Shown here piece after piece: positions 7,529 to 52,600 of a DNA stretch of 64,000 nt. The position numbers and the translations under genes are program-made. The DNA is from Zanthoxylum bungeanum (lineage: Eukaryota; Streptophyta; Magnoliopsida; Sapindales; Rutaceae), in NCBI GenBank assembly GCA_019454045.1, contig SKCR01041701.1, positions 24,474 through 88,473 on the forward strand, in the 5' to 3' direction. Numbering within the stretch: the stretch's first letter is position 1; each line of letters begins with the position of its first letter. Below the pieces are notes generated by a model. The model saw only the letters and a program-made list of their open reading frames with translations, was not told where the DNA came from and did no database searches.

Positions 7529-7588
<60 letters not shown>
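7529..7588 (+). repeat. (TA)n microsatellite in the bZIP leader
   Basis: About 60 nt of nearly pure TA dinucleotides with one phase break (ATTATA near 7561). It lies between the predicted transcription start and the upstream ORFs, so it is either in the 5' UTR or in a leader intron. Confidence 0.95.
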
Positions 7589-22990: not shown

Positions 22991-23303
22991 GATAAATGCC
23001 TATTTGTAGGATATCCTAGGGAAACCAAAGGATATTACTTCTATCACCCACAAGAGAACAAAATATTTGTGCTCTACATGCGGTTTTCCTTGAGAAGGAA
23101 TTCCTAAATGCAGTGATAAGTGGGAGGAAGTAGAACTCGATGAAAATCGGAGTGATACTATTCCTGGCACATAATCCTTAACGGTACATGAACAGTCCAT
23201 CAGGGATGAGACTGTACCACAATCTTCGAATACACAAGAACCGCGTAGGTCGGAGAGAGTCAGAAAATAACCTGAGAGGTATGGGTTTCTGATCTCACAT
23301 CAT

Positions 23304-24917: not shown

Positions 24918-26820
24918 TGTTGGAAAATTATGACCCATAGCGTTACTATTTGTAAAAGACATTGTAGTTTTTGTACAAATTAACTATGTGACAATGGAAA
25001 TTGTATTTTATCATTTTGTAATTTGATTACTTAAATATATAAATGATAAAAGTCCTTATGATTAGTTCCGGATTATTAGATATGAGACAATATCAATCCA
25101 TAAAGGTTTAATCATTAAATATCCCTAGTCGTAGTATTATCGAGACTGGACATCGATAAAGCAGAATAGACTAGTATTGCACTTGTGCGTGTTATGGAAG
25201 TGCAACAACATAGTTCTCATATATTTAAGTATTGGATTCTTATGCAAGTGTGATAGGAGGTTGTGTTTACCGATGGTACGGAAACAACTTCGCTCTGGAT
25301 AGACCCCGCGGAATCCTATTGGTAGTATGACTATGTGTCTATAGGAATCCGCATTAGGGTAGATGTATTTGGTCTTAACCTGAGACTTGCATCGCTAGTA
25401 CTTGCGACAATCAATACGCTTTGGTTTTGGTTGTCTAGGACTTTAACAGGTTCTGTGTATGCCTCTTCTGGGTTTATTGAGAATCGTAGTGTATTGGGTG
25501 TGATGTCAAGACGAAAGTATCACTTCAGTCATATGGAGATGATGATCACGCAGCGATACAGAACTGGTACTCCAATTGGTTGCAACCATCGGGATAATAT
25601 GACATGGTCATGATTATCCGATTAAAGAGACTAGTTGCTTGTGATCTGATATATGCTTCGTACGGGGAAGACATTATTCCAGCCTCAGGCCTTGCATGTG
25701 ACCATCCGATACTGGATCGTAATACGTAATACTACGTATACTACGACTGACATAAATTATATATTCCTTTAAGAATATTTCTGGAGAATTGGGTAGGCAC
25801 GGTGCTTTGCTAGAAGCCAACCATGTCTCGTAAATCGGTAAAAACGTGCGTGTTCGGATAGTCCGGCCGTCGACTAGATTTACTGCCAACATATCCAGGG
25901 ATCTCATGGGTGGCTTCCCGAAGATTCACCGATGACGTATGATTCAACATAATTAATCTAGGATTAATTACGGAGAGATTTTATCTATGATAAAATACTA
26001 TTTGAAGAGAGAGAACGATTAATTTAGAATTAATCGATAAAATAATATATTCGATATATTAAATGAAATTAGATTTCATAACGGAATTAAAATTAGATTT
26101 TAATTCGGGCGAACGAGTTAATTTAGAATTAATTCGCTAACGACATGAATAATAATTTTGCTAAGCATAATTATTTAATTAAATTTGATTTAATTACGTT
26201 GTAACGAAAAATTCATTAATTTGGAATTAACGAACCCGAGCCCGGAATGTGTTTCCGGGCCCACTCGGATTTTGAATTTAGTGCGGCCCACAAGTCACAT
26301 CAACTCGTCACTTTGCCTAACGTTTTGTTGATGGGTTTAGGTGAGTTGTTGAAGACTTGTAAAATACTCCAATTTGATGGAATGAAAGACAACTACCTAA
26401 TATTAGATATTTGGTATATCATTATTTTTTTGGTTTTTGAAATCAATTACACAAGTCTTTCACTTCATCTCTCCTTTTCTCATTCACGCAAATCACACTC
26501 TCTCCCTCCCCTATTTGGCTTGCCCGAAACACACAATAGAGAAGAAGAAAAATTGTGGCAATTTTTCTAAGTGCTAGCACATCAAATGAATCATATCAAG
26601 GTGTTAGGGAAACCTATCCTTGAGCTTGGAATCAACAACAAAGCTTGGAGCTTGGATTTCAATTCAAACTAGGAGCTTGGCCGAAACTTCAAGGAAGCAA
26701 TTTTTGGTGTTCAACGCATCCAACATCCGTTCTTTGTAAGTATGATTCCGCCATATTTCTTATTGTATTCACATGAATTCATTACTTAAATTGATCTTGG
26801 GACATCTTAGAAACCCAACA
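24918..26820 (+). repeat. Copia_A 3' LTR
   Basis: 1903 bp, TGTTGGAAAATTATGACCC to GAAACCCAACA, followed by the TTTTC target duplication. Confidence 0.95.
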
Positions 26821-33026: not shown

Positions 33027-33829
33027 TTCGTGAAAGTCACGAAGTATGTTGAACCATCATGAGCGACATGATTTAATGGACCACACACATCGTTGTGTAT
33101 TAGCTCTAATAAATCTCAGCACGGTGTCCAACACCAAGAAATGGGCCTTTGTCATCTTTCTTTGGATACATGACTCACAAATTGGATAAAGATCTAAGGT
33201 AAGATTTTCAATCAAACCGTCCTTTACCAATTTGGATAGACGTCTATCACCTATATCGTCTAATCTCATATGCCATAATTCAATATTATTTAATTCAGAT
33301 TTCATAGTTGTATTTTCCTCTACATTAAAGACATCTCTATATGTTTCAGAAACATAGTGACCGTTAGATAAAGAACATTCACATTTCAATAAGTCTTTAT
33401 AATATAAACATAAAGCTCCATCTTTAATGTTTATTTTATATCCCTCTTTATCTAATATTGACAGTGATATTATTTATCTGATAAGTGATGGTACATAATA
33501 ACAGTCATGTAAATTTAATTTACATCTATTGGGGAGATCTAGAACAACCGTTCCTATGGCCTTGACATCCAATGTCTCACCATTGCCAATTCTAAGTTGG
33601 ATCTCCCCTTTATTTAGCCTTCTTTTAACCCTCATGACCTGCATGGAGTTGCAAATATGAGTAGGAATGCTAGTGTCCAACACCCATCCATTATTTGCAT
33701 CTAAGGCTAATAAGATATCAATAATAGGAAAAATACAAAGCGTACCGGAAGGTCCATCTTTTCCTTTAAGCTCTGGACACTCTTTCTTCTAGTGCCCAGA
33801 CTTCTTACAATGTAGACATTGATCACGAG
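33027..33829 (-). pseudogene. Copia_B zinc knuckle, protease and integrase start
   Basis: Read from 33829 downward: a CCHC knuckle (DQCLHCKKSGH, then a stop in place of the next residue), the protease-like WVLDTSIPTHICNSMQ (about 33690-33640), CYYVPSLIR followed by an in-frame stop at 33474, then the pre-integrase motif LWHMRLDDIGDRRL and CESCIQRKMTKA (about 33290-33140), then, in a shifted frame, the integrase start with IHNDVCGPLNHV and YFVTFT. The Gypsy_A LTR cuts it at 33027. The WHMRLGH motif has become LDDIG, losing Gly-His. Confidence 0.88.
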
Positions 33830-35675
33830 TGGCCGGCGTAATCACACGTGTATAACGCAAGCGCACGTATCGTTCAAGTAGTATAAAAAATATCGATCCC
33901 ACGAGGATTTAATTTCTATTGTTGTTATTAATTATTGAATCTATTTATTTACATGTATCTAATTAAGGGAGAAGAGAATGATTGCTTTTGGTTGGTTGAA
34001 TGTGGATTTGATAAATAAAATAAATAAATAAAGATACAAAAGAAAATACTAAGGAAAATAAAAAAAGACTCAAATATCTAGGGTCGTGATTCCACACAAT
34101 ATTATTCTAAAGATGAATTGATTCTCTTATATATGTGTAATAAATCAGTTTGCTAACCTGGAACACGATGATATACAAAAGCCTCTTTCGATGGTCAGAC
34201 GCAAATACCCAGTATCATCCAATTAATCATATTCCTATGTTAATCAGATTACCTGAATTCATTAAGTTCAAATTCCAATTGTGGCTACCCCCGCCCGACA
34301 GGTATAATCATATCTTGTAAGGATATCTATTAAAAAGTTATCTATCATCAAGGAAGATCGTGAACTATTGAATCTAAGGCTGAAACCTAAAATCCATTTT
34401 CCAAGTTCATTTTAAGTTTACCAAATCAATCTTATTAATGGCTAGTTAACAAGAAGCATTAAGACTAAGACTTAATAAACAAACTAAAGAATTACCCATA
34501 AAAAGAAAATCAATTATTAAGTGTGTGGATATTGTGTTTCATCACTTCCCTAGAATAAAAATAAAATGTTGGGGGTTAGAGGATCCACATTTACTACTTC
34601 TAATTTAGAAATCTTCCTTATTATAATATGAAATTTATCAGTGATATTACCAACCGGCCATATAGGCGTATCCTCATTAAGTTAGATTTTAATTAAGTCC
34701 AACCGACCATAAATGCGGTATCATTATTTGTCCATAAACCAGCCATATAGGCGGTAATCATCTGTCACATAAAGACCGACCATATAGGCGGTGTCACATT
34801 ATTTCAAATAAATAAAACCAGCCATTAAGGCGGTATAACCTTTTAGTTTGAATTATAATTTCCATATTATAATTAAGGGAGATTAATCTAAATTAAAATA
34901 ATAAAAGCTTCACCCTTCCCCCCAGGGAAATTAACTACTAAACATAAAAGAAAAGAGAAGAAAAGAAACTACTATTATTACTGATAATAAAAGTACATAA
35001 TTTAAATTACAAAAATTAAACAAACAAGATGCAATCCTTAATTCCTTACAAAAACCTAAGGAAAACCTGAGAATTATAAATGAAATGGCTTGGTATTTAT
35101 AGGAAAATCTAAATGCTTCCACCAATTTCTCCACCAATCGCTCCACCAAACACTCCACCAAACACTCCACAAAACACTCCACCCAACACGCCACAAAACA
35201 CTCCACCAAATATGCTTGCATGGTTGGTGGAAGTTTGACAAATTTTTATATTTTTGATAATGACTTTAGTAATTAAACATAACATAATTTCGGATTGTTC
35301 ATCAATTTCGGTCATGCAATCTTCAGAATTCGAAATTACTTTATTCTTCAAAGTTGTATATCTTTGAGTCCTATTTAATCTGGAACTTGAATCAGCTCAA
35401 TCGGATATCGGATGAAAATGTTATGGCCAAAATATGAAACTTGCGCAAAATTAAAACTTAGGACTGCACTTCGTGACGCCTATAGTAAATTTCCATTTTC
35501 GCCATTTTTTTCTCCGGATTTTATCGTTTTAGCTCCGAGTTGATTCCATTAAGTCCCGATACTTTATTTATCTCTAAAACACATAAAAACACATCAAAAT
35601 GTTCATCAAACCCGAGAAACTAAACAAAATATTAGGTAAAAGGGTGGTAAATATTGATATATTTTCCGCTCATCA
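33830..35675 (-). repeat. 3' LTR of the LOG-bearing element
   Basis: 1846 bp, TG...CA (TGGCCGGCGTAATC to GCTCATCA on the plus strand). Very similar to 39596-41427. It contains a minus-strand TATA box (CCTATAAATACC, 35092-35103), several ACCGACCATATAGGCGGT-like units (34655-34830) and the short tandem array at 35113-35222. Confidence 0.95.
35113..35222 (-). repeat. 11-12-bp minisatellite in the LTR
   Basis: About nine imperfect copies of CTCCACCAAACA / CTCCACAAAACA. The 5' LTR has the same array at about 40878-40970 with fewer units, so the two LTRs differ by unit gain or loss. On the minus strand it lies just after the LTR TATA box, so it would be near the start of the element's RNA. Confidence 0.85.
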
Positions 35676-35690
35676 CACCCCCAAACCTAA
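35676..35690 (-). promoter_or_regulatory. Polypurine tract of the LOG-bearing element
   Basis: Reads GTTTGGGGGTG on the minus strand, touching the 3' LTR start (TGATGAGCGG). Sets the element's orientation. Confidence 0.85.
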
Positions 35691-36997
35691 CATTTTGCTA
35701 GTCCTCAAGCAAAACAACAAATTAAAATAAAACAAATAATTAAAATTAAACTAAGCCACTTTCGTAGGGATCACGGTTGCATTTAGCATATGCAACAAGC
35801 CTTTAAACCCATAGGTGTCCCTAGTGGACGAGTTGTAGTCTCGTGAGGGTTTACAGCGACGATACCCACAAACGTCTTATAAAAGTAAGAAGATAGTAAA
35901 ACTAATGCACACAAAAGAAAAAAGACAAGAGAATAAATAAGTTAGTGACTAAACATGTGAAACTTCTACTCCAAGTTAGTAGTTGTTTTCTTTATTTCTA
36001 AATTACTGAATAAGTAAATTCTCAGATTATTTTTATCATTCTTCATATACACAACCAATAGAATATTAATAAACTCATTTTACCCACAATAGTCACAAGT
36101 GCAGTTGAGAAGAGAGTAATATTTTTGTCCTAAAGTTTTATCAGAATTCACACCTTTTTGTAGCAATGGAATAATTTTTTCTAATTTTTTCTTTGATTTT
36201 TGATTTTTTTTTAATTTATATACAATATCTTCCGTCTATGTAGCGAGCTTTGGGCCAATTGGTTTTAGGGCACTAGGTGTTAAGACACCCCTACAGACTT
36301 AATTACTCAGACTTCAGATATATATATTTTTTGCAACATCTTCGATCTATGTAGCGAGCTTTGGGCCAGTGACTCCCAAACCAGTTGGTTTTAGGGCACT
36401 AGGTGTTAAAACACCCCTACGAACTTAATAACTCAGATCTCAGACATTTTTTTACACATTTTTTTCTTTTTCTATTTTTTTTATTCAATTGCTTTTTAGA
36501 TGCTTCCTCCAATTAAACTAGAGCACTGAATATTACAAAATTTTCAAATACATCTCATGGTTGTATGTTACCATGCATGTTGATAATACCTGTCAACTGA
36601 ACATATGAAGATCCATTTAAATCAGTATTATGGAGAATTTACAAATTAAATAATTCAAAAGGAAATAAACAAAAATTAACTTGTTTCGAAATAGGTTGAG
36701 ATACGTCTCAGGAGTGGAAATTCCTTACTCGGCTATCTCTTACACCAATTTCACCTGATTAATCAACATAAAATATAAAATATTTTTTTTTATTTTTGTA
36801 AAAAAATTTCAATTTTTTGGGATTTTTCGAAAATGTTAGACTAAAAATATAATAAAAATAACACAAAATAAACAAGATAATAATCAACTATTCTCTCCCC
36901 CAAACCTAAATGAGACATTGTCCCAAATGTCTTAAACAGTAGAAGAAGAGTTTAGAAGATCGTACCTGGTTAGCTGAAATTCTACGAAAAGAAATTA
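35691..36997 (-). other. Non-coding region between the LOG frame and the polypurine tract
   Basis: AT-rich, no ORF. It contains a direct duplication with a 111-bp offset (36228-36325 and 36338-36440) that includes TATGTAGCGAGCTTTGGGCC and GGGCACTAGGTGTTAARAC. This is the 3' UTR region of the element. Confidence 0.7.
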
Positions 36998-37651
36998 TTA
37001 CAGATTAAGATCTATGTCCAATTTACGCTTCTTACCACGATCACTATCTGACCAGTTCAACTTGAAAATAATGGGGTCGATTTTTGGTTCAAAGGCTAAG
37101 ATTTGGTCAATTAATTCTTCGGCCTTTGTTGCAGTCAGGAAAATATCTTGTACTGATTTTGTGACGAACTCATGTCTTTTGGCTTCCGCAAGAAATACAA
37201 ACAGAAAATCGAAAAAATGATCAATGTTAAGTAATCCAATGGGCTTCCGATGAATGTTCAAGTGCGCCAATGATGCCACTGTGAATATCTCTTCAAACGT
37301 TCCGAGCCCACCTGGTAAAGCAATAAACGCATCAGCAGTATTGACCATTTCAAGGAGTTGTTTAGACATCCCCGAGACAATGCGTTCATCCCCATTGGTT
37401 TTTCCGATGATGTGTTCGTCAGCCAAAATTTTTGGAATGATTCCCAAAACGTGACCGCCACCCTCCTGAACGGATTTTGAAATGCTTCCCATCAATCCAA
37501 GATTGCCACCGCCATATACTAGGTGCATATTACGTTCTGCCATGACTCTCCCCAATTCCCTTGCAGCCTCAATAAACTCTAGTTTATTACCAGAGTTGGA
37601 TCCACAGAAAACACAAATTCTCTTGACTCGCTGCTGTGAAGTTGCTTCCAT
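36998..37651 (-). CDS. LOG-family cytokinin riboside 5'-monophosphate phosphoribohydrolase-like protein
   Basis: 217 residues in one open frame, close to the usual length of plant LOG proteins (about 210-220), which release active cytokinin bases from their nucleotides in the cytosol and nucleus. Motifs: CVFCGS (13-18), the nucleotide-binding YGGGNLGLMG (46-55), and PGGLGTFEE (113-121) matching the family PGGxGTxxE. The fold core (VLGIIPK, DAFIALPGG, HRKPIGLLN) is complete. Odd: where canonical LOGs have MHQRKAEM this protein has MSKQLLEM (95-102), so the active-site Arg and Lys are gone. The C-terminus has KKRK (207-210) and LDIDLNL (211-217), resembling a nuclear signal plus an EAR repression motif. 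The first ATG is at 37651; the frame is open further upstream without an ATG. It lies inside an LTR element, in the same orientation, with no introns, whereas host LOG genes have several. Activity is uncertain. Confidence 0.92.
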   Translation of the reverse strand: MEATSQQRVKRICVFCGSNSGNKLEFIEAARELGRVMAERNMHLVYGGGNLGLMGSISKSVQEGGGHVLGIIPKILADEHIIGKTNGDERIVSGMSKQLLEMVNTADAFIALPGGLGTFEEIFTVASLAHLNIHRKPIGLLNIDHFFDFLFVFLAEAKRHEFVTKSVQDIFLTATKAEELIDQILAFEPKIDPIIFKLNWSDSDRGKKRKLDIDLNL

Positions 37652-37708
37652 TTTCTCTCTCTTATTTGGATGTTTATCTGGATGTGTCAAAGAGAGAAAT
37701 GTAGAGCT

Positions 37709-37722
37709 GAATTTATAGATAC
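37709..37722 (-). promoter_or_regulatory. Possible TATA box of the LOG-like gene
   Basis: Minus strand TATCTATAAATTC, about 60-70 bp before the ATG at 37651. A start 30 bp downstream would give a leader of about 35 nt. This may be a promoter carried along with the gene; alternatively the gene is read from the 5' LTR. Motif only. Confidence 0.35.
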
Positions 37723-38641
37723 TGAAAATAGGTGAGTAATAGTTGCACTAGTACCTACCAAATGACAATTATTAGATGAACGTTAAAATAAATCGTGAAA
37801 AGTCAAAAAGTTTAGATCTTGTTGGCGAAAATAAAGGAAATAAAAATAGAAAAGTAAATCAATGCAATTATTAAGGCAATAGAATTGTGTACGCAATACG
37901 CCACTCGCTTAGTATAAATTCATAAGGATGTGTCTCAAGAATTCATTCTTTATTCAGCCATCATAAATGAATTAGCTCTCTTCTTTGTGATTGCCAAACA
38001 CCATTCCTTCTGTCTTAAAATGCTTCGTTTGTGCTTTTCCCTTAAAAAATAACACACAAAATTAAAAACTCTACAACATGTATACACAAAATATGAAAAC
38101 AGAAATTACAACAAATTGCATGGGTTGCCTCCCTGCTAGCGCTAAATTTTTCGTCTTCAGCCAAACGTGACTGAAATCCATCTATCAAGGAGGTTTCAGC
38201 GTGGTTTTGGATGTCCGATTAAAGACAATCCCGTGTGCGTTGCTTTTGAAGGGTCTCTTCCAACGGTAAAGTGGCAAAAAGAGTTTTGTCCCATTCAGTG
38301 CTTGTGCCACCTTTTTTTTATCTTTGTTGCTCCAATGGTTCCTGAAAAAAAAGAAAGAAAATCAGGAGGTCTCGTATGGTGCTTGACTTGGAATGGAAAT
38401 TCTATTCTGTCAAGCTTCTGGTGATATCTCTGATATATACTCCCCAATACAATGATGTTTCCCATGAATACACTGGATCTTCAATAAGTTTAGACATTAG
38501 CTCTTTCTTTTGTTCCGGTTCCACCTTTTTTTCACATATGTATTTTAGGATTTCCTCGTTCAGTTCTTTATCTGTCATCTGTGAAATGCATGCTCCATAA
38601 GTATCAACCTAAGGATGTAAAAATGATTTTAGGTCTTTATC
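37723..38641 (-). other. Non-coding region between gag remnant and LOG frame
   Basis: No long ORF. At 38118-38143 the minus strand reads AGCGCTAGCAGGGAGGCAAC followed by CCATGC. As I recall, GCGCTTGTTGGGAGGCAACCC-like text follows the end of pol in many Athila-type elements. If so, pol has been deleted between here and the gag remnant at 38642, and the LOG frame lies in the position of the env-like ORF. Confidence 0.5.
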
Positions 38642-39460
38642 CTATGATATGACTGACTCATGTAGATCTTCTTCAAACATTTGTGCAATGGAAGCTCCAA
38701 GATCTTCATTTTGAGGACACAAAATTCCATCCTCAATTTTTGGTGCAGTCGGTACAAGTAGCTCAGCTTCTTCATCCTCGTCAGAATCTGAATAATAAAA
38801 GTCAAACAGAGACTTTGCTGGTTTGGGTTCCTGAACTGATACCTCTGGTTCTTGATATTGCTCAGCTTCTTTCTCTGGTAAGGTGTCACTGTGGAACTCT
38901 TGGTACTCAAAGGCTTCGTCAGTTTCATCTGAAAATGTTTCTTGAGGTATGTAGCTCTGGGTTTCTGTTAATTGTCTCGTTTGATCTTTCAATCTCTGAA
39001 TGGATGCTGATTGTCTCTGAATACTTTCGAATTGATTCTGGAATGTTTCAAGCATTGTATCCAACTTTTCGTCTTGTTTCTTGAACCAATCTTTGAGCAT
39101 GTTAATCATCTGATCTTCCTCCGTTGGTTCTGGTTCTTGTTGAAGATCGTAGATGGATGGTGGATAAGAAGGAAAATGTGGTTATGTTAAATATGCTGGC
39201 TCTTCATACCTTGATTGATTCTGATAATTCTGCCACTCTGAAATGTATATGTATTCATCGCTCGGGTGGTTACCATCGCATATCATACATCTCCCCATTG
39301 CGTTCTGATGAGCAAATGTAGTATTGCTTGGTTCTAGCATCCAGTGATAGTTGTTGGGCTGGACAACAGGCCTCAGAAAACCGGACTGTTGCTCCCTGAT
39401 TTGGGGTGTATCTTCTTCAAATAAAGATCGTAATCTTTCTATCTCCCAATAAAGATCCAT
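38642..39460 (-). pseudogene. Ty3-type gag remnant with zinc-knuckle-like motif
   Basis: One frame from ATG at 39460 to 38642, broken by a single in-frame TAA at 39182-39184. The first part has CMICDGNHPSDEYIY (about 39345-39300), like the CxxCxxxHxxxxC knuckle of Athila-type gag but with Tyr in place of the last Cys. After the stop the frame continues with a proline-rich linker and a Gln/Lys-rich segment (FKKQDEKLDTMLETFQNQ, IQRLKDQTRQLTE) that resembles the coiled gag tail of that group. It then becomes very acidic. The capsid part expected upstream is missing, since the ATG lies only about 110 nt after the primer site. Confidence 0.7.
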
Positions 39461-39572
39461 GTCAACCACCTGAAAAATAAAAGAAGGAAATAAAAATTAT
39501 AGATAAAAATAAAGAAAATTAGATACAAGTAAATTAGATAGCTTCAAAATTAATAACACAAGAAAAATAAGT

Positions 39573-39592
39573 CCTCGGCAACGGCGTCAAAA
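39573..39592 (-). promoter_or_regulatory. Primer binding site of the LOG-bearing element
   Basis: Minus strand TTTTGACGCCGTTGCCGAGG, a few bases after the 5' LTR end. It matches, with about two changes, the TGGCGCCGTTGCCGGGG site complementary to tRNA-Asp used by Athila-like plant Ty3 elements. Confidence 0.75.
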
Positions 39593-39595
39593 ACT

Positions 39596-41427
39596 TGACC
39601 GGTGCATAATCATACGCGTATAACGCAAGCGCACATATCGTTCAAGTAGTATAAAAAATATCGATCCCACGAGGACTTAATTTCTATTATTGTTATTAAT
39701 TATTGAATCTATTTATTTACAGGTATCTAATTAAGGGAGAAAAGAATGATTGCTTTTGGTTGGTTAAATGTGGATTTGATAAATAAAATAAATAAATAAA
39801 GATACAAAAGAAAATACTAAGGAAAATAACAAAAGACTCAAATATCTATGGTCGTGGTTCCACACAATATTATTCTAAAGATGAATTGATTCTCATATAT
39901 GTGTGTAATAAATCAGTTTGCTAACCTGGAACACGATGATATGCAAAACCCTCTTCCGATGGTCAGACGCAAATACCCAGTATAATCCAATTAATCATAT
40001 TCCTAGGTTAACCAGATTACATGAATTCATTAAGTTCAAATTCCAATTGTGGCTACCCCCACTCGACAGCCTATCCTGTAAGGAAATCTATTAAGAGGTT
40101 ATCTATCCTCAAGGAAGATCGTGAACTATTGAATCTAAGGCTGAAACCTAAAATCCCTTTTCCAAGTTCATTTTAAGTTTACCAAATCAATCTTATTAAT
40201 GGCCAGTTAACAAGAAGCATTAAGACTAAGACTCAATAAACAAACTAAAGAATTACCCATAAAAATAAAATCAATTATTAAATGTGTGGATATTGTGTTT
40301 CATCACTTCCCTAGAATAAAAATAAAATGCTGGGGGTTAGGGGATCCACCTTTACTACTTCTAATTTAGAATTTTTCCTTATTATTATATGGAATTTATC
40401 AGTGATATTACCAACCGTCCATATAGGCGGTATCCTCATTAAGTTAGATTTTAATTATGTCCAACCAACCATAAAGGCGGTATCATTATTTGTCCATAAA
40501 CCAGCCATATAGGCGGTAATCATCTGTCACATAAAGACCGACCATATAGGCGGTGTCACATTATTTGAAATAAATAAAACCTGCCATTAAGGCGGTATAA
40601 CCTTTTAGTTTGAATTATAATTTTCATATTATAATTAAGGGAGATTAATCTAAATTAAAATAATAAAAGCTTCACCCTTCCCTCCAGCGGAAATTAACTA
40701 CTTAACATAAAAGAAAAGAGAAGAAAATAAACTACTATTATTACTGAAAATAAAAGTACATAATTTAAATTACAAAAATTAAACAAACAAGATGCAATCC
40801 TTAAATTCCTTACAAAAACCTAAGGAAAACATGAGAATTACAAATGAAATGGCTTGGTATTTATAGGAAAATCTAAAGGCTTCCACCAATTTCTCCACCA
40901 ATTGCTCCACCAAACACTCCACAAAACACTCCACCAAACATGCCACAAAACACTCCACCAAACATGCTTGCATGTTTGGTGGAAGTTTGACAAATTTTTA
41001 TATTTTTGATAATGACTTTAGTAATTAAACATAATATAATTTCGGATTGTTCATCAATTTCGGTCTTGCAATATTCAGAATTCGAAATTATTTTATTCTT
41101 CAAAGTTGTAGATATTTGAGTCTTCTTTAATTTGGAACTTGAATCAGCTCAATCGAATATCAGATGAAAACGTTATGGCCAAAACATGAAACTTGCGCAA
41201 AATTGGAATTTAGGACTGCACTTCGTGACGCGTATAGTAAATTTCCATTTTCACCATTTTTTGCTCCGGATTTCATCGTTTTAGCCCCGAGTTGATTCCA
41301 TTTAGTCCCGATACTTTATTTATCTTCAAAACATATAAAAACACATCAAAACGTTTATCAAACCTGAGAAACTAAACAAAATATTAGGTAAAAGGGTGGT
41401 AAATATTGATATATTTTCCGCTCATCA
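39596..41427 (-). repeat. 5' LTR of the LOG-bearing element
   Basis: 1832 bp, partner of 33830-35675 with scattered substitutions and small indels. Carries the same minus-strand TATA box near 40856-40867, the presumed promoter for the element RNA and perhaps for the LOG frame. Followed by target duplication ACGAG at 41428-41432. Confidence 0.95.
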
Positions 41428-41432
41428 ACGAG

Positions 41433-42053
41433 CTACTTGCGGTTTTGCACCTTCACGCATCTTGGAGTTCTTCTTTGAAATCTTCTTCTTCCCTATTTTG
41501 ATTTTCTTTGACTTCCCATAAATCATTGAAGAGCTAGCTCCACCATGAAGGTACAAAGTGGGGTTACCTTTCCTCAAATCATGCTCTATCGTGCGTAACA
41601 TGTTATGAAGTTCTTCATAGCTGGCTTGATCGAATGCATGTGAAAGTTTAACACAAAGTCAATATAAGTTTCAGGCAAAGAAGACATAATCAAATTACGG
41701 CCTAGCCATTCATCAATCACAATGCCCTGTCATTCCAAATATTGAATTTGGTCGATCATGTTCAAAATATGAATGCTGACAACTTCTCATTCTTTGAGCG
41801 TAACATGGAAAAATTCTTAGATCTCTGATATATCTCGATTTCTTGATTTTCCTTGAACAACTCCTTGAGTGTTCGAATAATTCTCCAAATATCTGGTACC
41901 TCTATGTAATGTCTTAGCAAATCTGGAACCATTGATACTAAAATATAGGATTTCACCCTATGGTTAGCATCCTTCCATTTTTCAAGAACTTCTCGCTTTT
42001 CAGGAGTGGAGTCGGGATCGATTTCAACAAGCAATGGATTGATAGTTACATAG
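41433..42053 (-). pseudogene. Copia_B gag, middle part
   Basis: From 42053 downward the frame gives the copia capsid region (VEIDPDSTPEKREVLEKWKD, YILVSMVPDLLRHY, IIRTLKELF) to about 41762. It then continues in shifted frames to GKSKKIKIGKKKISKKN and QVARD near 41433, just before the zinc knuckle. It is separated from the N-terminus by the Tat-like element, whose CATAG target duplication lies at 42049-42053, and from the zinc knuckle by the LOG-bearing element. Across both insertion points the reading frame would be continuous, which shows that they hit a then-open gag. Confidence 0.85.
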
Positions 42054-45000
42054 TGTAGGAACACAGAAACTAGATGACGCATGCTGTCCCGGGCTCGCGG
42101 CCCGGTTGGGAGTACGGAGTAGCCCGCAGGGGACTAAACCGGAGAATAATGGAGTCGCCACCCGGTGTGAACCGGGAAAATGAGATTTAAGGCCGCACTC
42201 ACCCTTCGCAAGGGAAGACCTCAAACCGTTGGGTTCGGAATGGTCCCTTACTTATGTCACTTGTAATGAAAGGATTCGTGTAATAATTTAATCAAGCTTA
42301 AATAACACTTATTTCCAATAGTATCATGCTTCTAAATTCACATGCACAAAAATAAAACTTACACCTAAATTTGCATATATTTCACATCTAAGATTGCATG
42401 CTTGAAAGTACATCAAAGTAGCAACGAACATACAACTTCATTGGCATATTGTATTCATGGAAACACAAGCACACACTAACCACACAAGCACACATAAAGG
42501 CGAATCAAATAATGGCGAACATGTGATTTCATAGACATATCATAAACAAATAGCCATTACATGTCCATGCACAAATAAAAGAGTAAACTAAGTACATAAT
42601 GCAAAAAGACACATAAGGATGCAATTAGGCATTAAAGTGAGCATGCTATGACGTGGTGCAAAGGAAGATAACTAATATGGACACAAGGACACATGTGAGC
42701 ACTTTTCCAAGTGGTACGTGGAATTGTATCCCAAGTACAGACCGCACTACCGTCCATTCAGAATCGGCTACAGAATTTATATCTGGGTTTCCATCCGATA
42801 TACCACAAGAAATGATACTCAAATGCTATCATAACATGGATATATGAATTGTAATACGTTAAGCCAAGATAGGGATAGATGATGCAATCAATAGATGAAA
42901 GACACGGCAAATATCGTGGTAAAGGTAGCCTTTTAGGCTTTTCTTCCCCCAAATGGAGAACCTTTTAATCCAACACAATAAGCCCATGCGCCTTTCGTTA
43001 CAATGCGTACAAAGATAAAGATAACTATATGAAATTTCGTATACCCGATTGAATACATCTTACATTCAACCGAGTATATATCAACCGATGCGGCAAAACA
43101 TCGTGGTAAAGGATTTTAACCCCTCCAAATAGGGGACCTTCAATCCGAATTACTAAGCCCATGCGCTCGATCGCATCATGCATACAAAAATAAAGACAAT
43201 CATATCAAACTTAGTATGCCCGATTGAACATATCTTACATCCAACTGAACACACATCAACCGGCGCGGCAAAGCATCGTTGTAAAGGATTTTAACCCCTC
43301 CAAATAGGGGACCTTTAATCCGACTTACTAAGCCCATGCGATCGATCGCATTATGCATACAAAAATAAAGACAATCATATCAAACTTAGTATGCCCGATT
43401 GAACATATCTTACATCCAACCGAACACACATTAACCGGCGCGGCAAAGCATCGTGGTAAAGGATTTTAACCCCTCCAAATAGGGGACCTTTAATCCGACT
43501 TACTAAGCCCATGCGCTCGATCGCATCATGCATAAACAAGTAACATGCGGAATTCAAATGACGAAAAATAAATAAATCAAAGCAGCATGAAACAAAAGAA
43601 GGTGCCGTTTACTCAAGCAGTACATGGAGTTGTATCCCGAGTACAGATCATACTACCGTCCATTCGGAATCGGCTAAGAAATTTATTTCCGGGTTTCCAT
43701 CCGATATACCACGAGAGTTGACACATCTTTCATTTTATTCCAAAGCCACAACATACAATATTTCATAATACATGCATATTTATCTACTCAAGGGCCACAA
43801 CATGCATTTCCACATAACAATCATGCGAACAATACTAAATAAATAATGAAAATAAAACAGAAAACAAATGTGAAAAATACCCTCAGGTCTAACCTTTTAT
43901 GTCGACTTTCGGACTCGCGTTTCACGGCCGTCGGAAGGGCTATCACACCGTAACTTTTCTAGTTCACTGGTTTGCATTTTACCTTGCTGTTTCGCTGCTC
44001 AAGCTACTGTTTTGACCTCCATTTTGCTGCTGTTTCCTCGCGGTTTCACTGCCGTATTGTTGCTGTATTTTGGTCACTGTTTTTGGTGTTTTAGGCTACT
44101 GTTTTGGCTCGATTTTGGGACTGTTTTGGGCTAATCTGGGACTGTTTTAGGAGTGTTTGTGAGGGTAATATGCGGCAGTGCAAGATGGAGAGGCGTGCAG
44201 GTTTTAGCTAGGTTTGAAGGCTGCTTTATGGGGGCAGTTTCAGGGGTAATTTGGTGCGCTTATTTAAGTATTATGAGTGAGGCGTGGTTGCTGTGTTTTA
44301 TCGGTTAAGGGATTTTTGTTTCATGTGGCGTGAAGGGTTATAGCTTCATTCAGGGGGTGGTGAAGCAGTGTGGGGAAGCAACGTGCAGGGGCTACGTGGA
44401 GTTTGGTGATTGCGTGGAGTGAAGGCTAGGCAAATGTGTGAAAAGGGCGCTTGAGTGAGGGTTGTTGCGTGATCAGGGGGGTATACGTAAAGGACAAAGA
44501 CGTTAGGGGCAGTTACTTACGTGAAGGGCTGAGCGTGTGGCTTGGTATGTTATGCTTAGCGTGGGTGAAGGGTCCGTTCGATTGATGAAGGGTTATGCGT
44601 GTGGCTTGTGTGAGTGTAAAGAGTTGTGTTTTAATGGCTTGAGTGGCTGTTAACGTGAAGGGGCAATTGTTGGCAATGAGTTGTGGCGTTTAGCGTGAGG
44701 AGGCAGGTGTTGTTGATGTGTTCTTTAGGGAGTGGCGTGCATGGGTGGAAATGGATTTGTTAGTGGGTCGTAGCTCGGTTGAATGAAGGGGTAAAAGGGC
44801 GAGAGGGATGGATGAGAGAATAGGGTTTCTTTTTTGTGTGTATGCGTGTGAGAGAGAGAATTGGGCGTGAATTCAGAGAGAGGGCAGGCTTGTGTTTGGC
44901 TTTGTTTATATAGACGAGGGCTAGGGCTTCCTCTTGTCTCACAAGGAAGGGATTTGATTTTGTGTTGAGCAAGGAAAGTCAAAGATTGAGGGGGGAAAAA

Positions 45001-45632
45001 TTTGGTTTAGATTAGGAATGCATTATATTTAATTTTTTATGATTGATTTTAATTAGGAATGATATTTGTTAAGTTGGGTATATAATATATTTGATTTATC
45101 TTTATTAGGCATGCAATTTCTTTAATTTTTGTAAGTATTTTATTATTTTGGTAGGTGATTATTTAGATTTTATTTGTTTTATTTAATTACACATGTTGTT
45201 AAATATATATTTAATTAATTATTTTATTTAATTTGGTATATGATTTAATTAATTATTTTATTTAATTTGGGTTGTATTTTGAGGGCCTTGGGCGTGTGGG
45301 CTTCCCTTGGGCGTGAGTGGGCTTGGCTTGGTGGGTTTGGTTTGTGCGGGCTAGGTGTGTGGGCTTGCGGGGGTTTTAGGTTAAGGCCAAGGGGTTTGCG
45401 GGGGTTTTGGGCCGAGGTTTAGTGGTTTGCGGATTTTTTTAGGCTAAATGTGCTTTAAAACAGAGGTCCACTAGCGAGCCCGAAGCTAAACAAGCGAGTA
45501 AAATTCGACAAAGTACTGATTTCCATCTTTTCCCTTCCGACGTCCGTTTCCCGCGGCTTCCGTGACTTAAAAGGTAGTGCCTCCAAATGAGACTCATCAT
45601 CGGGTTTCACATGCAAAAATGCAATGCCTACA
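42054..45632 (-). repeat. 3' LTR of the Tat-like element
   Basis: 3579 bp, plus-strand ends TGTAGGAACACAG and AATGCCTACA. It has a minus-strand TATA box (TATATAA, about 44907-44913) and the 175-bp tandem repeats at 42880-43540. Confidence 0.95.
42880..43540 (-). repeat. 175-bp tandem repeats inside the Tat-like LTR
   Basis: Units begin at 43051, 43226 and 43401 (GATTGAAYAYATCTTACAT), with a more diverged unit before. Each holds ACATCGTGGTAAAGGATTTT, CCCCTCCAAATAGGGGACCT and TACTAAGCCCATGCG. The partner LTR has the same array at about 50460-51110. Confidence 0.92.
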
Positions 45633-45650
45633 GTCGCCCCCACTTTGATG
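45633..45650 (-). promoter_or_regulatory. Polypurine tract of the Tat-like element
   Basis: Minus strand AAAGTGGGGGCGAC directly before the 3' LTR start TGTAGGC. Confidence 0.85.
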
Positions 45651-45764
45651 GGACTTGTGCAGTGTGTGACTTTGAACATTTCTATCAAAGTTATGCAATG
45701 CATTTCTACTTACCTGGCTCGCCAGGTGTTGCTTAACTTACTTGTTATCCTGAGATGCTTTGAC

Positions 45765-46560
45765 CTTTGGGCTTTATTCCCGAACTGCGTTGAGAGAGAG
45801 CTTCATTCTCCTGGGCTGTGTTCCTGAACTGTTTCGTAAGTGGGCTTTATTCCTCTAGGCTTTTCTCGAACTATGTAGAGATATGGCTTTATTCCCCTGG
45901 GCCTTATTCCCGAGCTTGTGTTAAGATAGGGCTTTATTCCCCTGGGCCTTATTCCCGAACTACTTTGAAAGTGGGCTTTATTCCCTTAGGCCTTGTTCCC
46001 GAACTATGTTAGGATAGAGCTTTATTCCTCTGGGCTATATTCCCGAACTGTGTTAAGATAGGGCTTTATTCCTCTGGGCCTTGTTCCCGAACTGCTTTGA
46101 AAGTGGGCTTTATTCCTCTAGGCTTTTTTCCAAACTGTGTTGAGAGATGGCCTTATTCCCCTGGGCTGTATTCCCGAACTGAGAGAGAGCTTTATTCTCC
46201 TGGGCTGTATTCCCGAACTATACTGAGAGAGAGCTTTATTCCTCTGGGCTGTATTCCCGAATTATGTTGACTGTGGGCCTGGTTCCCGAACTGTACTGAT
46301 TGAAGGCTTTATTCCCTAGGCCTTGTTCCCGAACTGTACTGAATGTGGGCTTTATCCCCGAACTGAGCGGACTGTGGGCTTTGTTTCTGAATTGTACTGA
46401 ATGTGGGCTTTACCCCCGATCTGAGCTGACTGTGGGCTTTATTCTCGAACTGTGTTGGATGTGGGCTTTATTCCCTTATCTGAGCTGACTGTGGGCTTTA
46501 TTCCCGAACTGTGTTGAATATGGACTTTATTCCCCTGGGCCTTGCTCCCGAAACTGTTAC
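45765..46560 (-). repeat. Minisatellite of GGGCTTTATTCCC units
   Basis: A run of over 20 imperfect units such as GGGCTTTATTCCCCTGGGCC and TTRTTCCCGAACTGTGTTGA. Unit length varies from about 35 to 65 bp because some carry an extra GGCCTTGTTCCCG block. It lies in the element's 3' untranslated region, a place where Tat/Ogre-type elements are known to carry tandem arrays. Confidence 0.92.
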
Positions 46561-46840
46561 CGATGTAGTGGTCCTTCGACCTCAAACTGACGTGGGCCTC
46601 ACCCCAAAACTGATACTGACGTGGGCCTCGCCCTCAACTGATACTGATATGGGCCTCGCCCCCAGACTGATAATGATGTGGGCATCGCCCCCAGACTCGT
46701 CCCCAAGCTACTGATAATGACGTGGGCCTCGCCCCCAGATTGCCATATCCGGCAAGACTGATGTTGATGCTAATGGGCCTCGCCCCCAGAGTGCCATACC
46801 CAAAACTCAAACTCAAATGGGCCTCAACCCTGGGATTATT
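46561..46840 (-). repeat. Second minisatellite, TGGGCCTCGCCCCCAGACTG units
   Basis: About eight imperfect units of roughly 30-35 bp (GACGTGGGCCTCGCCCCCAG, ACTGATACTGA). It directly follows the first array, with a different but related GGGC-rich unit. Confidence 0.9.
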
Positions 46841-47471
46841 ACCCAAATCCGATATTGTGCTTTTTACCATTTCTGATTAACTTGTCCTTTGTCGCTTTCT
46901 CTTTTCTTCTTCAAAACTTGTGAACACAAAACAAAACAAACAAAAAAGGATGCAAAATGTGTTACATGTATGCATGCATGAATGTTCCTATCCCGTCGGG
47001 TTAGGTCTTCTGCCAATTCTCTTGGTGACTGCTCAGTCTTCTTTTCCTCAGGCGAGCCACTGCTTCAATCTATCTACGTTGATCGGCTTGGTGAACTAAT
47101 TCCCTTCCAAGTATGATATTCTTACTGCCCCCATTTCCCCATTTCTGAATGGCTACCTTATCTTTTCTGCTTGCTTATTCCGAGGATTCCCCGTGTTCTA
47201 AACATCACTGAATTTCATAGTACCAAGGTTGAATGATTTTCTCAAATATACTCATATTGCAGAAGAGATTCAGCGAAATGAACGTCTTTATTATCATTTA
47301 AGAAAATGGTTCGAACATGTAGACTAAATCAATGTCTATATTAAAAAAAGCAGGATCAAATAAACTAGGAGGAATAACTTCATCATTCGCAACATTGCCT
47401 TCTTCCTTGGCCTATGGTTCTTCACTGTTATCCCTTATCTCAATGCAAGAAGCTTGGGTGGTTGAGTGGCT
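46841..47471 (-). other. Interior of the Tat-like element between arrays and gag
   Basis: About 630 bp without a recognised domain. On the minus strand pol should begin here, but no protease or reverse transcriptase motif is visible. Confidence 0.5.
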
Positions 47472-48676
47472 TTATGGTTGAGGGTTCATGTGTGTGTTGG
47501 GTTGTTCTTTTTCTGGATTGGCTATTTTATGGGAGTCAATGAGGTTTTGGACCTCATGCCTAAGGCGGGTACAATTGTCGGTGTCATGGCCTTTTTCTTG
47601 ATGGAAGTGACAATACTGGTTTAGGTTGAGGTATGGTGGCACAGGGTTCGGAAATGGCCTAGGTTCCAAAGGTTTTAGAAGTCCTTGCATTTTCAGCTTT
47701 TCAAATACATTTGACAAAGGTCTAGCAAGATTGGAGAATCACCTGTTCTTGACGGTAGCGACCTCGGCAGTAGCGGGCTTGGTCTCAGAAGGCCCCCCAA
47801 AAGTTCTTCTATTCTGGCCATAAAACTTTCTGTTTTCAGCCTCTTCTTCCTCAATATCCATGATAGTTTCCCTCAATTGTCGAAAATCAGAAATCATCGA
47901 AGTCATCCTCCTTAGCTTACTATAAATAGAGGGTTTGGTGCCCTTGATGATCATTTTGATTTGGTCCTTCTCTGAGGGCCGAGTCTGCATTTTCAAAAGC
48001 TGACTTCTCCAGCGATCCACATACTCTTTGAAACTTTCCTCTGGCTTCTGCTTAGTGTTCTCCAAATCACGGAGTGACAAGTCAATCTCTAAGTCTGTAA
48101 CATACTGCTTCAGAAAAGCATCAGCTAGTTCCCTCCAATCTTCCTTAACCTTCTTCTCAAGGCTATGATAGCAAACCACAGGTGCCCCCTCGAGTGACAT
48201 CCCAAACATCTTTTGGACTTGGCGCTGTGATAGGCCTACTGAACTCATGACTGAGACATATTGCTGCAGATGGACTCTCTGGTCTCCATTCCCATTAAAC
48301 TTGGCCATGTTAGGCATTTTAAACTGAGCTGGCAGCTGTTCTCCGAAGGTCATTGCCTCATAATCTAACAACTCTTCATGTTTACCCCTTATTTTGCGGG
48401 TAACTGACTCAACCTGATCCCGAAGCTTCTGAAATTCTGCCTGAGACCCAATCATTTTGCCTGTCGCATACTCTGCCATGTCGTCATCAAAAGCGGGGAT
48501 ATCATCCCTCAACCCATTCGGAGGCTCCTCGCGCCTCACATTCTCAGAATTTCCCCCAGCACGGGGCACAGCCATATTTGCCATTGCAGTAGTCAGGGCT
48601 TGCAACTGTTCGGTAATCTTGGTGAATCATTTTCTAACTGATCTATCTGGGATACCTCGTTATCGGATGTACTCAT
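47472..48676 (-). pseudogene. Tat/Ogre-type gag, lightly broken
   Basis: The likely start is ATG at 48676 (MSTSDNEVSQIDQLEND). A one-base shift near 48615-48630 leads into the long frame 48602-47739, with the Tat-type capsid signature FKMPNMAKFNGNGD followed by HLQQYVSVM, then LADAFLKQY, then ESFKEYVDRWRS. A single TGA at 47739-47741 interrupts it, after which the same frame runs to 47472 through the knuckle-like YCHFHQEKGHDTDNCTRL and HEVQNLIDSHKI. Gag forms the virus-like particle; two lesions suggest recent decay. Confidence 0.9.
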
Positions 48677-49637
48677 ATCTTTTTACCGGTCTTTTAGTGA
48701 GTCTTCACTCTTCCCAACCCAACGGGAATCTATGATGGCATTTTAGAACACAATGGGTTAGCATGATGCATGTATGCATGAAATGTATGAGACGCATATG
48801 ATACAATGAATATATCAATTTATTAAAATTTTCATACAAATTGGCCCATCATCATTTTAGAAGCTTTTGGGCTAACTGTCATAGGAGTGAACTCGTCCTA
48901 GTTTAAATGGCCCAACAAGTTCACATCTCATGGCAAGAAGTCCAACCGTATCCAAATGATAATGTTCCTAAACATAAGCACAAAATGACCCATCAATATT
49001 TAGAAGTCTTTGGCCCAATCGTCATAAGATATGTTCTTGTCCCAGTTTAAATGGCCCAGCAAGTTCGCATTTCTGACGATAGTCCAACTGCATCCAAATG
49101 AGGATGGTCCATAAGCACATACTCAAGGAAATAATTGTTACTTTAACCATACAAACCCGGTCTATGGGTGGGTTCGCAAGAGTGTAGACAAAGGCTCTCA
49201 CCGGCGAAGGATGGCCCACAACTAGGCCTCCCCAATCAAGGGTTCGAGCAACCAAGTGAGCGCACCCTTTTTTATACACTAAGGTACGTGCCAATGAGCT
49301 ATGGTGTGTGACTGACTGTCAAATGGATTTCCCATTGTAGATTCCCCAGAGGGAGGGTGGAGCGAGGCTCTCTTAAGTACCCTAGCCTCTTAGGCTCTTA
49401 TCACTTGGTGACAGGAATAAACAACGAGTCCTCCAAATTAGTCCATCACAATAGGCTACGGGTAGATGGCTATATAGGTGCCTTCACAGCTTTTCCTTCT
49501 AGAAAGGTAGTGAATGAAGGAAGACACCAAACCATTACCTAGCCCGAAAATGCCTTTGATTAAACCCCCATTTTATCCACTATAGACACGGTCAATTAGA
49601 ACATAAATCCAAACATTACAAGACAATATTTTCGGGC
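48677..49637 (-). other. Leader of the Tat-like element
   Basis: Between the 5' LTR and gag. No ORF of note. The sequence ATGGCCCAACAAGTTC-type phrase occurs twice (48906 and 49050) in a duplicated block of about 150 bp. I could not identify the primer tRNA: the bases after the LTR read GCCCGAAAATATTG on the minus strand. Confidence 0.6.
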
Positions 49638-52600
49638 TGTAGGAAAACAGAAACTAGACGACGCATGCTGTCCCGGGCTCGCGGCCCGGTTGGGAGTACG
49701 GAGTAGCCCGCAAGGGACTAAACCGGAGAATAATGGAGTCGCCACCCGGTGTGAACCGGGAAAATGAGATTTAAGGCCGCACTCACCCCTCGCAAGGGAA
49801 GACCTCAAACCGTTGGGTTCGGAATGGTCCCTTACTTATGTCACTTGTAATGAAAGGATTCGTGTAATAATTTAATCAAGCTTAAGTAACACTTATTTCC
49901 AATAGTATCATGCTTCTAAATTCACATGCACAAAAATAAAACTTACACCTAAATTTGCATATATTTCACATCTAAGATTGCATGCTTGAAAGTACATCAA
50001 AGTAGCAACGAACATACAACTTCATTGGCATATTGTATTCATGGAAACACAAGCACACACTAACCACACAAGCACACATAAAGGCGAATCAAATAATGGC
50101 GAACATGTGATTTCATAGACATATCATAAACAAATAGCCATTACATGTCCATGCACAAATAAAAGAGTCAACTAAGTACATAATGCAAAAAGACACATAA
50201 GGATGCAATTAGGCATTAAAGTGAGCATGCTATGACGTGGTGCAAAGGAAGATAACTAATATGGACACAAGGACACATGTGAGCACTTTTCCAAGTGGTA
50301 CGTGGAATTGTATCCCAAGTACAGACCGCACTACCGTCCATTCGGAATCGGCTACGGAATTTATGTCTGGGTTTCCATCCGATATACCACAAGAAATGAT
50401 ACTTAAATGCTATTATAACATGGATATATGAATTGTAATACGTTAAGCCAAGACAGGGATAGATGATGCAATCAATAGATGAAAGACACGGCAAATATCG
50501 TGGTAAAGGTAGCCTTTTAGGTTTTTCTTCCCCCAAATGGAGAACCTTTTAATCCAACACAATAAGCCCATGCTCCTTTCGTTACAATGCGTACAAAGAT
50601 AAAGATAACTATATGAATTTTGTATACCCGATTGAATACATCTTACATTCAACCGAGTATATATCAACCGATGCGGCAAAACATCGTGGTAAAGGATCTT
50701 AACCCCTCCAAATAGGGGACCTTTAATCCGAATTACTAAGCCCATGCGCTCGAACGCATCATGCATACAAAAATAAAGACAATCATATCAAACTTAGTAT
50801 GCCTGATTGAACATATCGTACATCCAACCGAACACACATCAACCGGCGCGGCAAAGCATCGTGGTAAAATGATTTTAACCCCTCAAAATAGGGGACCTTT
50901 AATCCGACTTACTAAGCCCATGCGCTCGATCGCATTATGCATACAAAAATAAAGACAATCATATCAAACTTAATATGCCTGATTGAACATATCTTACATC
51001 TAACCGAACACACATCAACCGGCGCGGGAAAGTATCGTGGTAAAGGATTTTAACCCCTCCAAATAGGGGACCTTTAATCCGACTTACTAAGCCCATGCGC
51101 TCGATCGCATCATGCATAAACAAGTAACATGCGGAATTCAAATGACGAAAAATAAATAAATCAAAGCAACATGAAACAAAAGAAGATGATGTTTACTCAA
51201 GCGGTACGTGGAGTTGTATCCCGAGTACAGATCATACTACCGTCCATTCGGAATCGGCTATGAAATTTATGTCCGGGTTTCCATCCGATATACCGCGAGA
51301 GTTGACACATCTTTCATTTTATTCCAAAGCCACAACATACAATATTTCATAATACATGCATATTTATCTACTCAAGGGCCACAACATGCATTTCAACATA
51401 ACAATCATGCGAACAATACTCAATAAATAATGAAAATAAAATAGAAAACGAATGTGAAAAATACCCTCAGGTCTAACCTTTTATGTCGACTTTCGGACTC
51501 GCGTTTCACAGCCGTCGGAAGGGCTATCACACAGCAACTTTTATGGTTCACTGGTTTGCATTTTACCTTGCTGTTTCACTGCTCAAGCTACTGTTTGGCC
51601 TCCATTTTGCTGTTGTTTCCTCGCGGTTTCACTGCCGTATTGTTTCCGTATTTTGGTCACTATTTTTGGTGTTTTAGGCTACTATTTTGGTTCGATTTTG
51701 GGACTATTTTGGGCTAATCTGGGACTGTTTTAGGAGTGTTTGTGAGGGTAAAATCTGGCAGTGCAAGAGGGAGAGGCGTGTAGGTTTTAACTAGGTTTGA
51801 AGGCTGCTTTGTGGGGGTAGTTTCAGGGGTAATTTGGTGCGCTTATTTATGTATAATGAGTGAGACGTGGTTGCTGTGTTTTTTCGGTTAAGGGATTTTT
51901 GTTTCATGTGGCGTGAAGGGTTATAGCTTTGTTCAGGGGGTGGTGAAGCAGTGTGGGGAAGTAACGTGCAGGGGCTACGTGGAGTTTGGTGATTGCGTGG
52001 AGTGAAGGCTTGGCAAAGGTGTGAAAATGGCGCTTGAGTGAGGGTTGTTGCGTGATCAGGGGGTATGCGTGAAGGGCAAAGACGTTAGGGGCAGTTACTT
52101 ACGTGAAGGTCTGAGCGTGTGGCTTGGTATGTTATGCTTAGCGTGGGTGGAGGTTTCGTTCGATTGATGAAGGGTTATGCGTGTGGCTGTGTGTGAGAGT
52201 AAAGAGTTGTGTTTAATGGCTTGAGTGGCTGTTAACGTGAATGGGCAGGTGTTGGCAATGAGTTGTGGCGTTTAGCGTGAGGAGGCAAGTGTTGTTAATG
52301 TGTTCTTTAGGGAGTGGCATGCATGGGTGGCAGTGGATTTGTTAGTGGGTCGTAGCTCGGTTGAATGAAGGGGTAAAAGGGCGAGAGGGATGGATGAGAG
52401 AATAGGGTTTCTTTTTTTTGTTTATGCCGTGTGAGAGAGAGAATTGGGCGTGAATTCAGAGAGAGGGCAAGGCTTGGTTTGGCTTTGTTTATATAGAAGA
52501 GGGCTAGGGCTTCCCCTTGTCTCACAAGGAAGGGATTTGATTTTGTGTTGAGCAAGGAAAGTCAAAGATTGATGGGGGACAAATTTGGTTTAGATTAGGA

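Follow-up and report, generated by a model that had tools for sequence, protein, structure and literature searches.

How a complete LOG-family frame came to lie between the long terminal repeats (LTRs) of a plant retrotransposon, and what such a frame would do there, is the question raised by a locus of Zanthoxylum bungeanum. The window analyzed in this work, that is, the whole stretch of 64,000 nucleotides from contig SKCR01041701.1, contains this locus on its minus strand. The original prediction proposed that a spliced LOG transcript had been captured by the element, and that the element can now spread a cytokinin-related gene. From the analyses described below we consider it probable that a non-autonomous element, inserted in a copia element, carries a LOG gene that was inherited from other elements, that has been under selection as an accessory gene, and whose product has a rebuilt pocket and is not an ordinary cytokinin activator.

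Anatomy of the element and its insertion site

Table 1. Features of the LOG-carrying element and of its immediate surroundings, in window coordinates.
Feature	Position	Strand	Remarks
GAG-pre-integrase piece, copia element	33057..33389	-	left of the LOG element
Target-site duplication ACGAG, left copy	33825..33829
LTR, 3' in element orientation	33830..35675	-	1846 nt, TGATGAGC...GGCCA
Polypurine-type tract AGGTTTGGGGGTG	35676..35688	-	adjoins the 3' LTR; by eye from the sequence
Short imperfect direct repeats, two families	36216..36447	-	spacing 111 + 126 nt; LOG-to-3' LTR interval
LOG-family frame	36998..37651	-	ATG at 37651, stop ends at 36998; 217 codons + stop, intron-free
LOG upstream flank	37652..37747	-	stop-free in the LOG frame; ATG-proximal part with homology to the extended N-termini of P0001 and P0005
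TATAAAT, 66 nt upstream of the LOG ATG	37711..37717	-	candidate own promoter (weak)
Stop-free stretch, 179 aa (155-aa frame)	38642..39181	-	below Pfam cut-offs; gag remnant of the original prediction
Stop-free stretch, 104 aa (95 aa from the first start codon)	39182..39496	-	without Pfam match
PBS-like stretch TGACGCCGTTGCCGAGGA, 6 nt past the 5' LTR	39572..39589	-	by eye from the sequence
LTR, 5' in element orientation	39596..41427	-	1832 nt, TGATGAGC...GGTCA
Target-site duplication ACGAG, right copy	41428..41432

The two LTRs (Table 1) aligned with 1738 matches, 89 mismatches and 24 gap columns (94% identical; K2P 0.0505), both have TG...CA termini, and the unit is bounded by an exact 5-bp target-site duplication; it is by this combination of an LTR pair, TG...CA ends and a short duplication that an LTR retrotransposon is recognized. 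The LTR pair, its TG...CA ends and the exact duplication, as well as the 217-codon LOG frame between the LTRs, had been described in the original prediction and were all re-measured with the same result. When the flanks were joined minus one copy of the duplication, an in-frame copia-type gag zinc knuckle (CLHC...GH...C) was recovered, with one stop inside. Because this joining restores the copia gag frame, the whole unit, including the LOG, is a single insertion. That a host LOG gene acquired two LTRs around it by chance is practically out of the question: the missing pol, and nothing else, would agree with it, and it is refuted by the exact duplication around the unit, the restored target frame and the absence of introns. 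Regarding orientation, the PBS-like stretch follows the right LTR and the purine tract precedes the left LTR on the minus strand; the LOG is therefore sense to the element, and the polarity of both tracts agrees with the previous claim that the frame lies in the element's own orientation. The PBS-like stretch resembles a PBS of the tRNA-Asp type and may be one. At the rice rate of 1.3e-8 per site and year, which is possibly an overestimate for tree species, the LTR divergence corresponds to approximately 2 million years.

The GAG-pre-integrase piece is probably part of the copia element that was hit by the LOG element. The LOG insertion divides this copia element into two halves, at 33057-33824 and 41433 to approximately 42080 (minus strand), and the right-hand frame at 41762-42082 gave no Pfam match.

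Between the LTRs there are 24 stop-free stretches of at least 45 aa on both strands, a few of which cross the borders. The Pfam scan covered 21 of them, including all 13 on the element's strand; shorter broken frames escape a scan of this kind. At the curated cut-offs no gag or pol domain was detected in the 21 stretches scanned, the LOG being the sole match. The 179-aa stretch showed weak coiled-coil-type matches (best E 0.022), and given that its 155-aa frame and the neighboring 95-aa frame stayed under every curated cut-off, their designation as a gag remnant amounts to a guess. The gag and pol of an autonomous LTR retrotransposon were thus not found in the scanned stretches, and this copy looks non-autonomous. 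The element probably belongs to the Ty3/gypsy type and would fall in its Ogre/Tat/Athila group; the length of the LTRs, the TGATGAGCGG start and also the PBS-like stretch resemble those of the Athila/Tat group. The Athila ORF-1 domain PF03078 gave no match in the scanned frames, and most Athila elements also lack it. According to the accessible text of PMC6317226, this domain is present in 16% of Athila elements.

No match to the LTRs or to the inner part was found elsewhere in the window at 1e-5, a second LOG was not detected in the window (the matches outside the element were at chance level, with E 2 or more), and the Rfam scan gave no match. The GC content is 41% in the LOG, 34% in the other inner parts and 32% in the LTRs; the higher value of the LOG is compatible with a gene of other origin and by itself proves little.

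Several other features were observed in the window. A bZIP53-like gene at 7860-8297 (plus strand) encodes a protein of 145 aa with an identity of 90% to Citrus and, over 92% of its length, to Melia, and of 86% to Xanthoceras, which points to a host from the Sapindales. One repeat is present in three copies, at 12776-14146, 16854-18191 and 24918-26245; frames for copia gag, integrase and RT lie between the second and the third copy, at 21005-24109, and the first copy may be a solo LTR. Direct repeats at 42054-45632 and 49638-53216 (spacing 7582-7584, pieces 93-98% identical over approximately 3.6 kb, with 175-nt tandem units) enclose a Ty3-type gag frame at 47739-48626, and the region 42054-53216 resembles a further LTR element, whose LTRs would be very long.

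The LOG frame, its upstream flank and its relatives

The product of the LOG frame matched the Pfam domain Lysine_decarbox with E 3.3e-32 (111.9 bits, for a cut-off of 27), and it contains the sequence PGGLGTFEE at residues 113-121, in agreement with the PGGxGTxxE motif of the LOG family. Read in plus orientation, positions 36998-37651 contain 11 stops. The closest solved structures are those of AtLOG3 and AtLOG8. In line with this, a structure predicted from 36 aligned sequences (pLDDT 85.5, pTM 0.83) found its best counterparts in the PDB in AtLOG3 (2a33) and AtLOG8 (1ydh), with TM 0.93-0.95 by target length, and the predicted model shows that the protein has the LOG fold. The alignment with AtLOG3 is gap-free over residues 4-201; the frame is therefore without intron. 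The LOG genes of peanut mostly have 7 exons and 6 introns (accessible text of PMC13257298), which agrees with the statement of the original prediction that cellular plant LOG genes contain several introns. Since the frame is intron-free and the cellular LOG genes of peanut mostly have seven exons, a processed origin of the frame is likely.

The part of the upstream flank that adjoins the ATG matched P0001 (E 2e-12) and P0005 (E 4e-11) in a search restricted to this window; both have the same stretch upstream of the ATG, which indicates that the LOG and its flank travel together. The TATAAAT in this flank is expected by chance between −90 and −35 in 2.4% of the cases by shuffling, for a stretch that was picked after the motif had been seen. 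At a similar place, the residues ..YKFS.. occur in four of eight non-cellular N-terminal extensions (P0001, P0005, and the Xanthoceras P0123 and P0124), which would fit TATAAATT; these residues are absent from P0130, P0097, P0020 and P0024, of which the last two are maybe too short to reach this place. A TATAAAT-like motif may recur in distant members of the clade described below, and expression of the LOG from its own promoter is possible. Transcription from an own promoter has been reported for Grande, according to a reference title in the accessible part of PMC7264820.

Two protein searches were carried out, one with the window LOG (best 120 of 7883 matches listed) and the other with a Xanthoceras relative (best 120 of 7999 matches listed), both of which scored the 7999 candidates with most words in common. 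A quick tree, without bootstrap, was built from those 178 of 190 rows that measure 175-300 aa or come from Arabidopsis, with 12 models set aside as shorter or longer, and in it a branch with an SH-aLRT of 100 separates 145 rows, including the window LOG, from 33 plant LOGs that include AtLOG3 and AtLOG8. In a second and more careful tree, for which 61 rows were selected and two bacterial LOGs served as root, a clade of 44 rows (99/99) stands beside 15 plant LOGs. As judged from these trees, the window LOG belongs to one diverse LOG clade apart from the sampled plant LOGs. A bacterial origin is disfavoured, given that the plant LOGs and the clade group together against the two bacterial LOGs (100/98). 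The window LOG protein had no match in the viral contigs or in the genome contigs, and the viral contigs gave no match with P0114 or with the 20-base LTR start; a search with an alignment detected a single locus there, with 38% identity, on a 45,672-base IMG/VR contig.

Among the matches listed, the members of the clade are 48-89% identical to the window LOG. Its kin in a 10-row subclade are 77-89% identical, and all of them come from ENA contigs under 1.5 kb. Named members of the clade come from rosids, namely Xanthoceras and Acer (Sapindales), Reevesia (Malvales) and Populus (Malpighiales), and from one asterid, Paulownia. For Reevesia pubescens, at least 13 locus tags, distributed over 9 contigs of 57-99 Mb, are among the matches listed, and all 13 listed tags fall in one subclade of the quick tree; for Xanthoceras there are at least 14 rows among the matches listed, with tags from several assemblies. 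It could be argued that the clade is an ordinary divergent subfamily of cellular LOGs that was picked up by the element, with the multi-copy plant genes as regular members of the family, in as much as the Populus and Acer members carry the names LOGL10 or cytokinin phosphoribohydrolase. We find this quite unlikely in view of the number of Reevesia tags and Xanthoceras rows just mentioned, and of the YgdH domain present in LTR-retrotransposon consensuses of Citrus and Populus (PMC9289625, accessible part). In public plant sets, the clade members named in this way are P0031, P0040 and P0137.

The scenario of the original prediction, a recent local capture of a spliced host LOG mRNA by an element that spreads an active cytokinin-activating gene, would account for an intron-free, complete, sense frame between LTRs, and gene capture by LTR elements is known, for instance in maize Bs1 (accessible text of PMC7264820). 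This scenario is very unlikely, given that the listed relatives in the clade are 48-89% identical and stand apart from the plant LOG7, LOG3 and LOG8, and that the changes of the catalytic Arg and of the Lys described in the next section are common to clade mates. The part of it that stands is the processed origin, which the intron-free sense frame makes likely; the fresh event does not agree with a diverse clade apart from the plant LOGs, and the LOG phylogeny, which the original prediction had itself put forward as a check, places the frame in this clade.

Active site and constraint

In CgLOG, Arg99 and Glu122 have been proposed to be catalytic, the adenine is bound through Lys100 and Glu121, and Met96, His97, Lys100, Glu125 and Trp129 line the prenyl site, as in AtLOG3; replacing the AMP-binding or catalytic residues by alanine left hardly any activity, with the exception of S19A (accessible text of PMC4979012). 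The motifs set each window residue at the CgLOG number minus 1. Under this correspondence, the catalytic Arg is replaced by Gln98 and the adenine-binding Lys by Leu99, the counterpart of Glu121 is Glu120, and the catalytic Glu is kept as Glu121, with the phosphate loop also intact; hence, of the residues by which a cytokinin-activating LOG is recognized, the Arg and the Lys are missing and the catalytic Glu is present. The prenyl site consists of Met95, Ser96, Leu99, Thr124 and Leu128, that is, it shows three changes besides the Lys.

At these positions, the 33 cellular rows show H, R, K, E and W without exception. Among the 145 rows of the clade, the position of the catalytic Arg is occupied by Arg in 132, Gln in 11, His in 1 and Cys in 1, and position 99 (Lys100) is Lys in 16 rows and L (58), I (37), M (32), F (1) or H (1) in the other 129. 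The 10-row subclade of the window LOG has Gln in 9 rows and Arg in P0006, four other rows of the clade are also without Arg, and Trp128Leu is almost private to the window copy. On the tree, the loss of Lys corresponds to one change and the Arg/non-Arg states to six; by this count, the rebuilding of the pocket came at an early stage, and some lineages lost the Arg afterwards. The wider clade, with Arg kept in 132 of 145 rows, may still be catalytic. It has been reported that some plant LOGs have a second activity, which yields the riboside from the riboside monophosphate, and that activity does not track phylogeny (accessible text of PMC11593424); the loss of these residues therefore need not end all cytokinin chemistry. 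The fact that the Lys was lost once, almost always to hydrophobic residues, while other columns are conserved, suggests a remodelled accessory gene and not a cytokinin activator. Because no pol was recognized in the window copy, it would be able to move with help in trans only; for this reason, and in view of the changes in the residues of hydrolysis known from CgLOG, the claim that the element can now spread a cytokinin-related gene could not be upheld.

The constraint on the clade was counted over 130 rows of 205-260 aa, with a tree length of 15.1 changes per column. Of the 213 columns, nine are invariant and 27 show the same residue in 98% or more of the rows, whereas a uniform-rate simulation of 3000 columns yielded none of either kind. 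This speaks for constraint on the clade, bearing in mind that a protein database by its nature contains open frames only (survivorship). For 31 cellular rows (tree length 2.06), 108 of 207 columns are invariant versus 24.9 expected; in these alignments the cellular LOGs are also conserved and far more constrained, but over much less change.

A less favorable reading is that the LOG is a dead passenger, useless to both the element and the host, with a frame that is open by chance. In 20,000 runs of neutral decay at the LTR rate, the LOG frame stayed intact in 25% and acquired no stop in 61%, and since a quarter of the neutral simulations keep the frame, the open frame in the window copy is no proof of function. 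The intact runs predict 11.3 residue changes since the insertion; in the window LOG, 12 residues are absent from 9 clade mates (a rough proxy for its own changes), one of them at a Trp conserved in 98%, so that the window copy may now be drifting. These results suit the window copy and not the clade, in which 27 of 213 columns are near-invariant, versus 0 in the simulation, and a hydrophobic residue takes the place of the Lys in 128 of the 129 rows; overall, we regard the dead passenger as unlikely.

Possible role of the LOG frame and comparison with known systems

In the reading that we favor, a LOG maintained as an accessory gene of elements, the founding event would have been the capture of a spliced plant LOG transcript. 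The gene of the window element, near the 3' LTR and in sense, would have been passed down from other elements, not captured afresh. The clade as a whole would be element-borne, as suggested by its dispersal and by what is in print for Citrus and Populus; an element was seen around the window copy only. The LOG would have been retained by selection in an accessory role; its product, with the base pocket rebuilt, would no longer be an ordinary cytokinin-activating enzyme. Most likely, the intact PGGxGTxxE loop would bind a nucleotide monophosphate, and the protein would act on, or merely bind, a ligand other than a cytokinin riboside monophosphate. A bolder version, which we put forward tentatively, is that elements have kept the LOG since before the rosid/asterid split (or that it went from plant to plant) and have turned it into a different protein, with the base and prenyl pockets rebuilt and the Arg gone in some lineages; this protein might bind or break a nucleotide-type signal of the host, or pair with host LOG subunits, and its gene might have its own TATA besides the LTR. 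If true, a LOG kept in elements across a broad range of plants and apparently stripped of its hormone chemistry would offer a tractable case, because structures and assays exist for the parent enzyme and its substrates are known. As a warning for annotation, the clade members named LOGL10 or cytokinin phosphoribohydrolase could inflate the counts of the LOG family.

The capture of LOG by plant elements was already known, and the window element is another case. Two Athila-like elements with LOGL4-like frames were reportedly described by Steinbauerova in 2011. In the accessible part of PMC9289625, LOG ("YgdH") domains are presented in consensus sequences of Ty3/gypsy elements from Citrus sinensis, C. 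clementina and Populus trichocarpa, and Steinbauerova et al. 2011 (Genetica 139:1543) is cited as the earlier report. Beyond these two reports no further paper on LOG in an element was found, in a literature whose subscription papers were mostly outside reach. Text searches did not find the word LOG in PMC7264820, PMC11728184 and PMC11963269, LOGL in PMC5408684, or "lysine decarboxylase", "LOG family" and "cytokinin" in PMC6317226. In general, the extra frames found in plant LTR elements show high divergence, only approximately one fifth of them match known domains, and whether they serve any function at all is an open question (accessible text of PMC6317226).

Compared with plant LOG enzymes, the window protein shares with AtLOG3 (2a33) and AtLOG8 (1ydh) the fold, the length, the PGGxGTxxE loop and the catalytic Glu, with 44% identity in the structural match; in contrast, its Arg is changed to Gln and its Lys to Leu, the His, Glu and Trp of the prenyl site are changed, and its gene has no introns. 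Among the elements, those of Citrus and Populus with YgdH are alike in having a LOG-family domain inside a plant Ty3/gypsy element, and Citrus and the host of the window element both belong to Sapindales; the window element differs in that pol was not recognized in it. The Gypsy_Pa_2799 elements of orchids also carry a host-related, enzyme-type extra domain in a plant Ty3/gypsy element, but in this case the frame encodes an m6A demethylase (2-ODD) and the elements are large, Ogre-like and provided with gag-pol (accessible part of PMC9289625). In Grande, Retand and others, an accessory frame is located between pol and the 3' LTR, and the LOG of the window is likewise near the 3' LTR; however, the frames of Grande and Retand are antisense, and that of Retand has no similarity outside elements, whereas the window frame is sense and LOG-like (accessible texts of PMC7264820 and PMC11963269).
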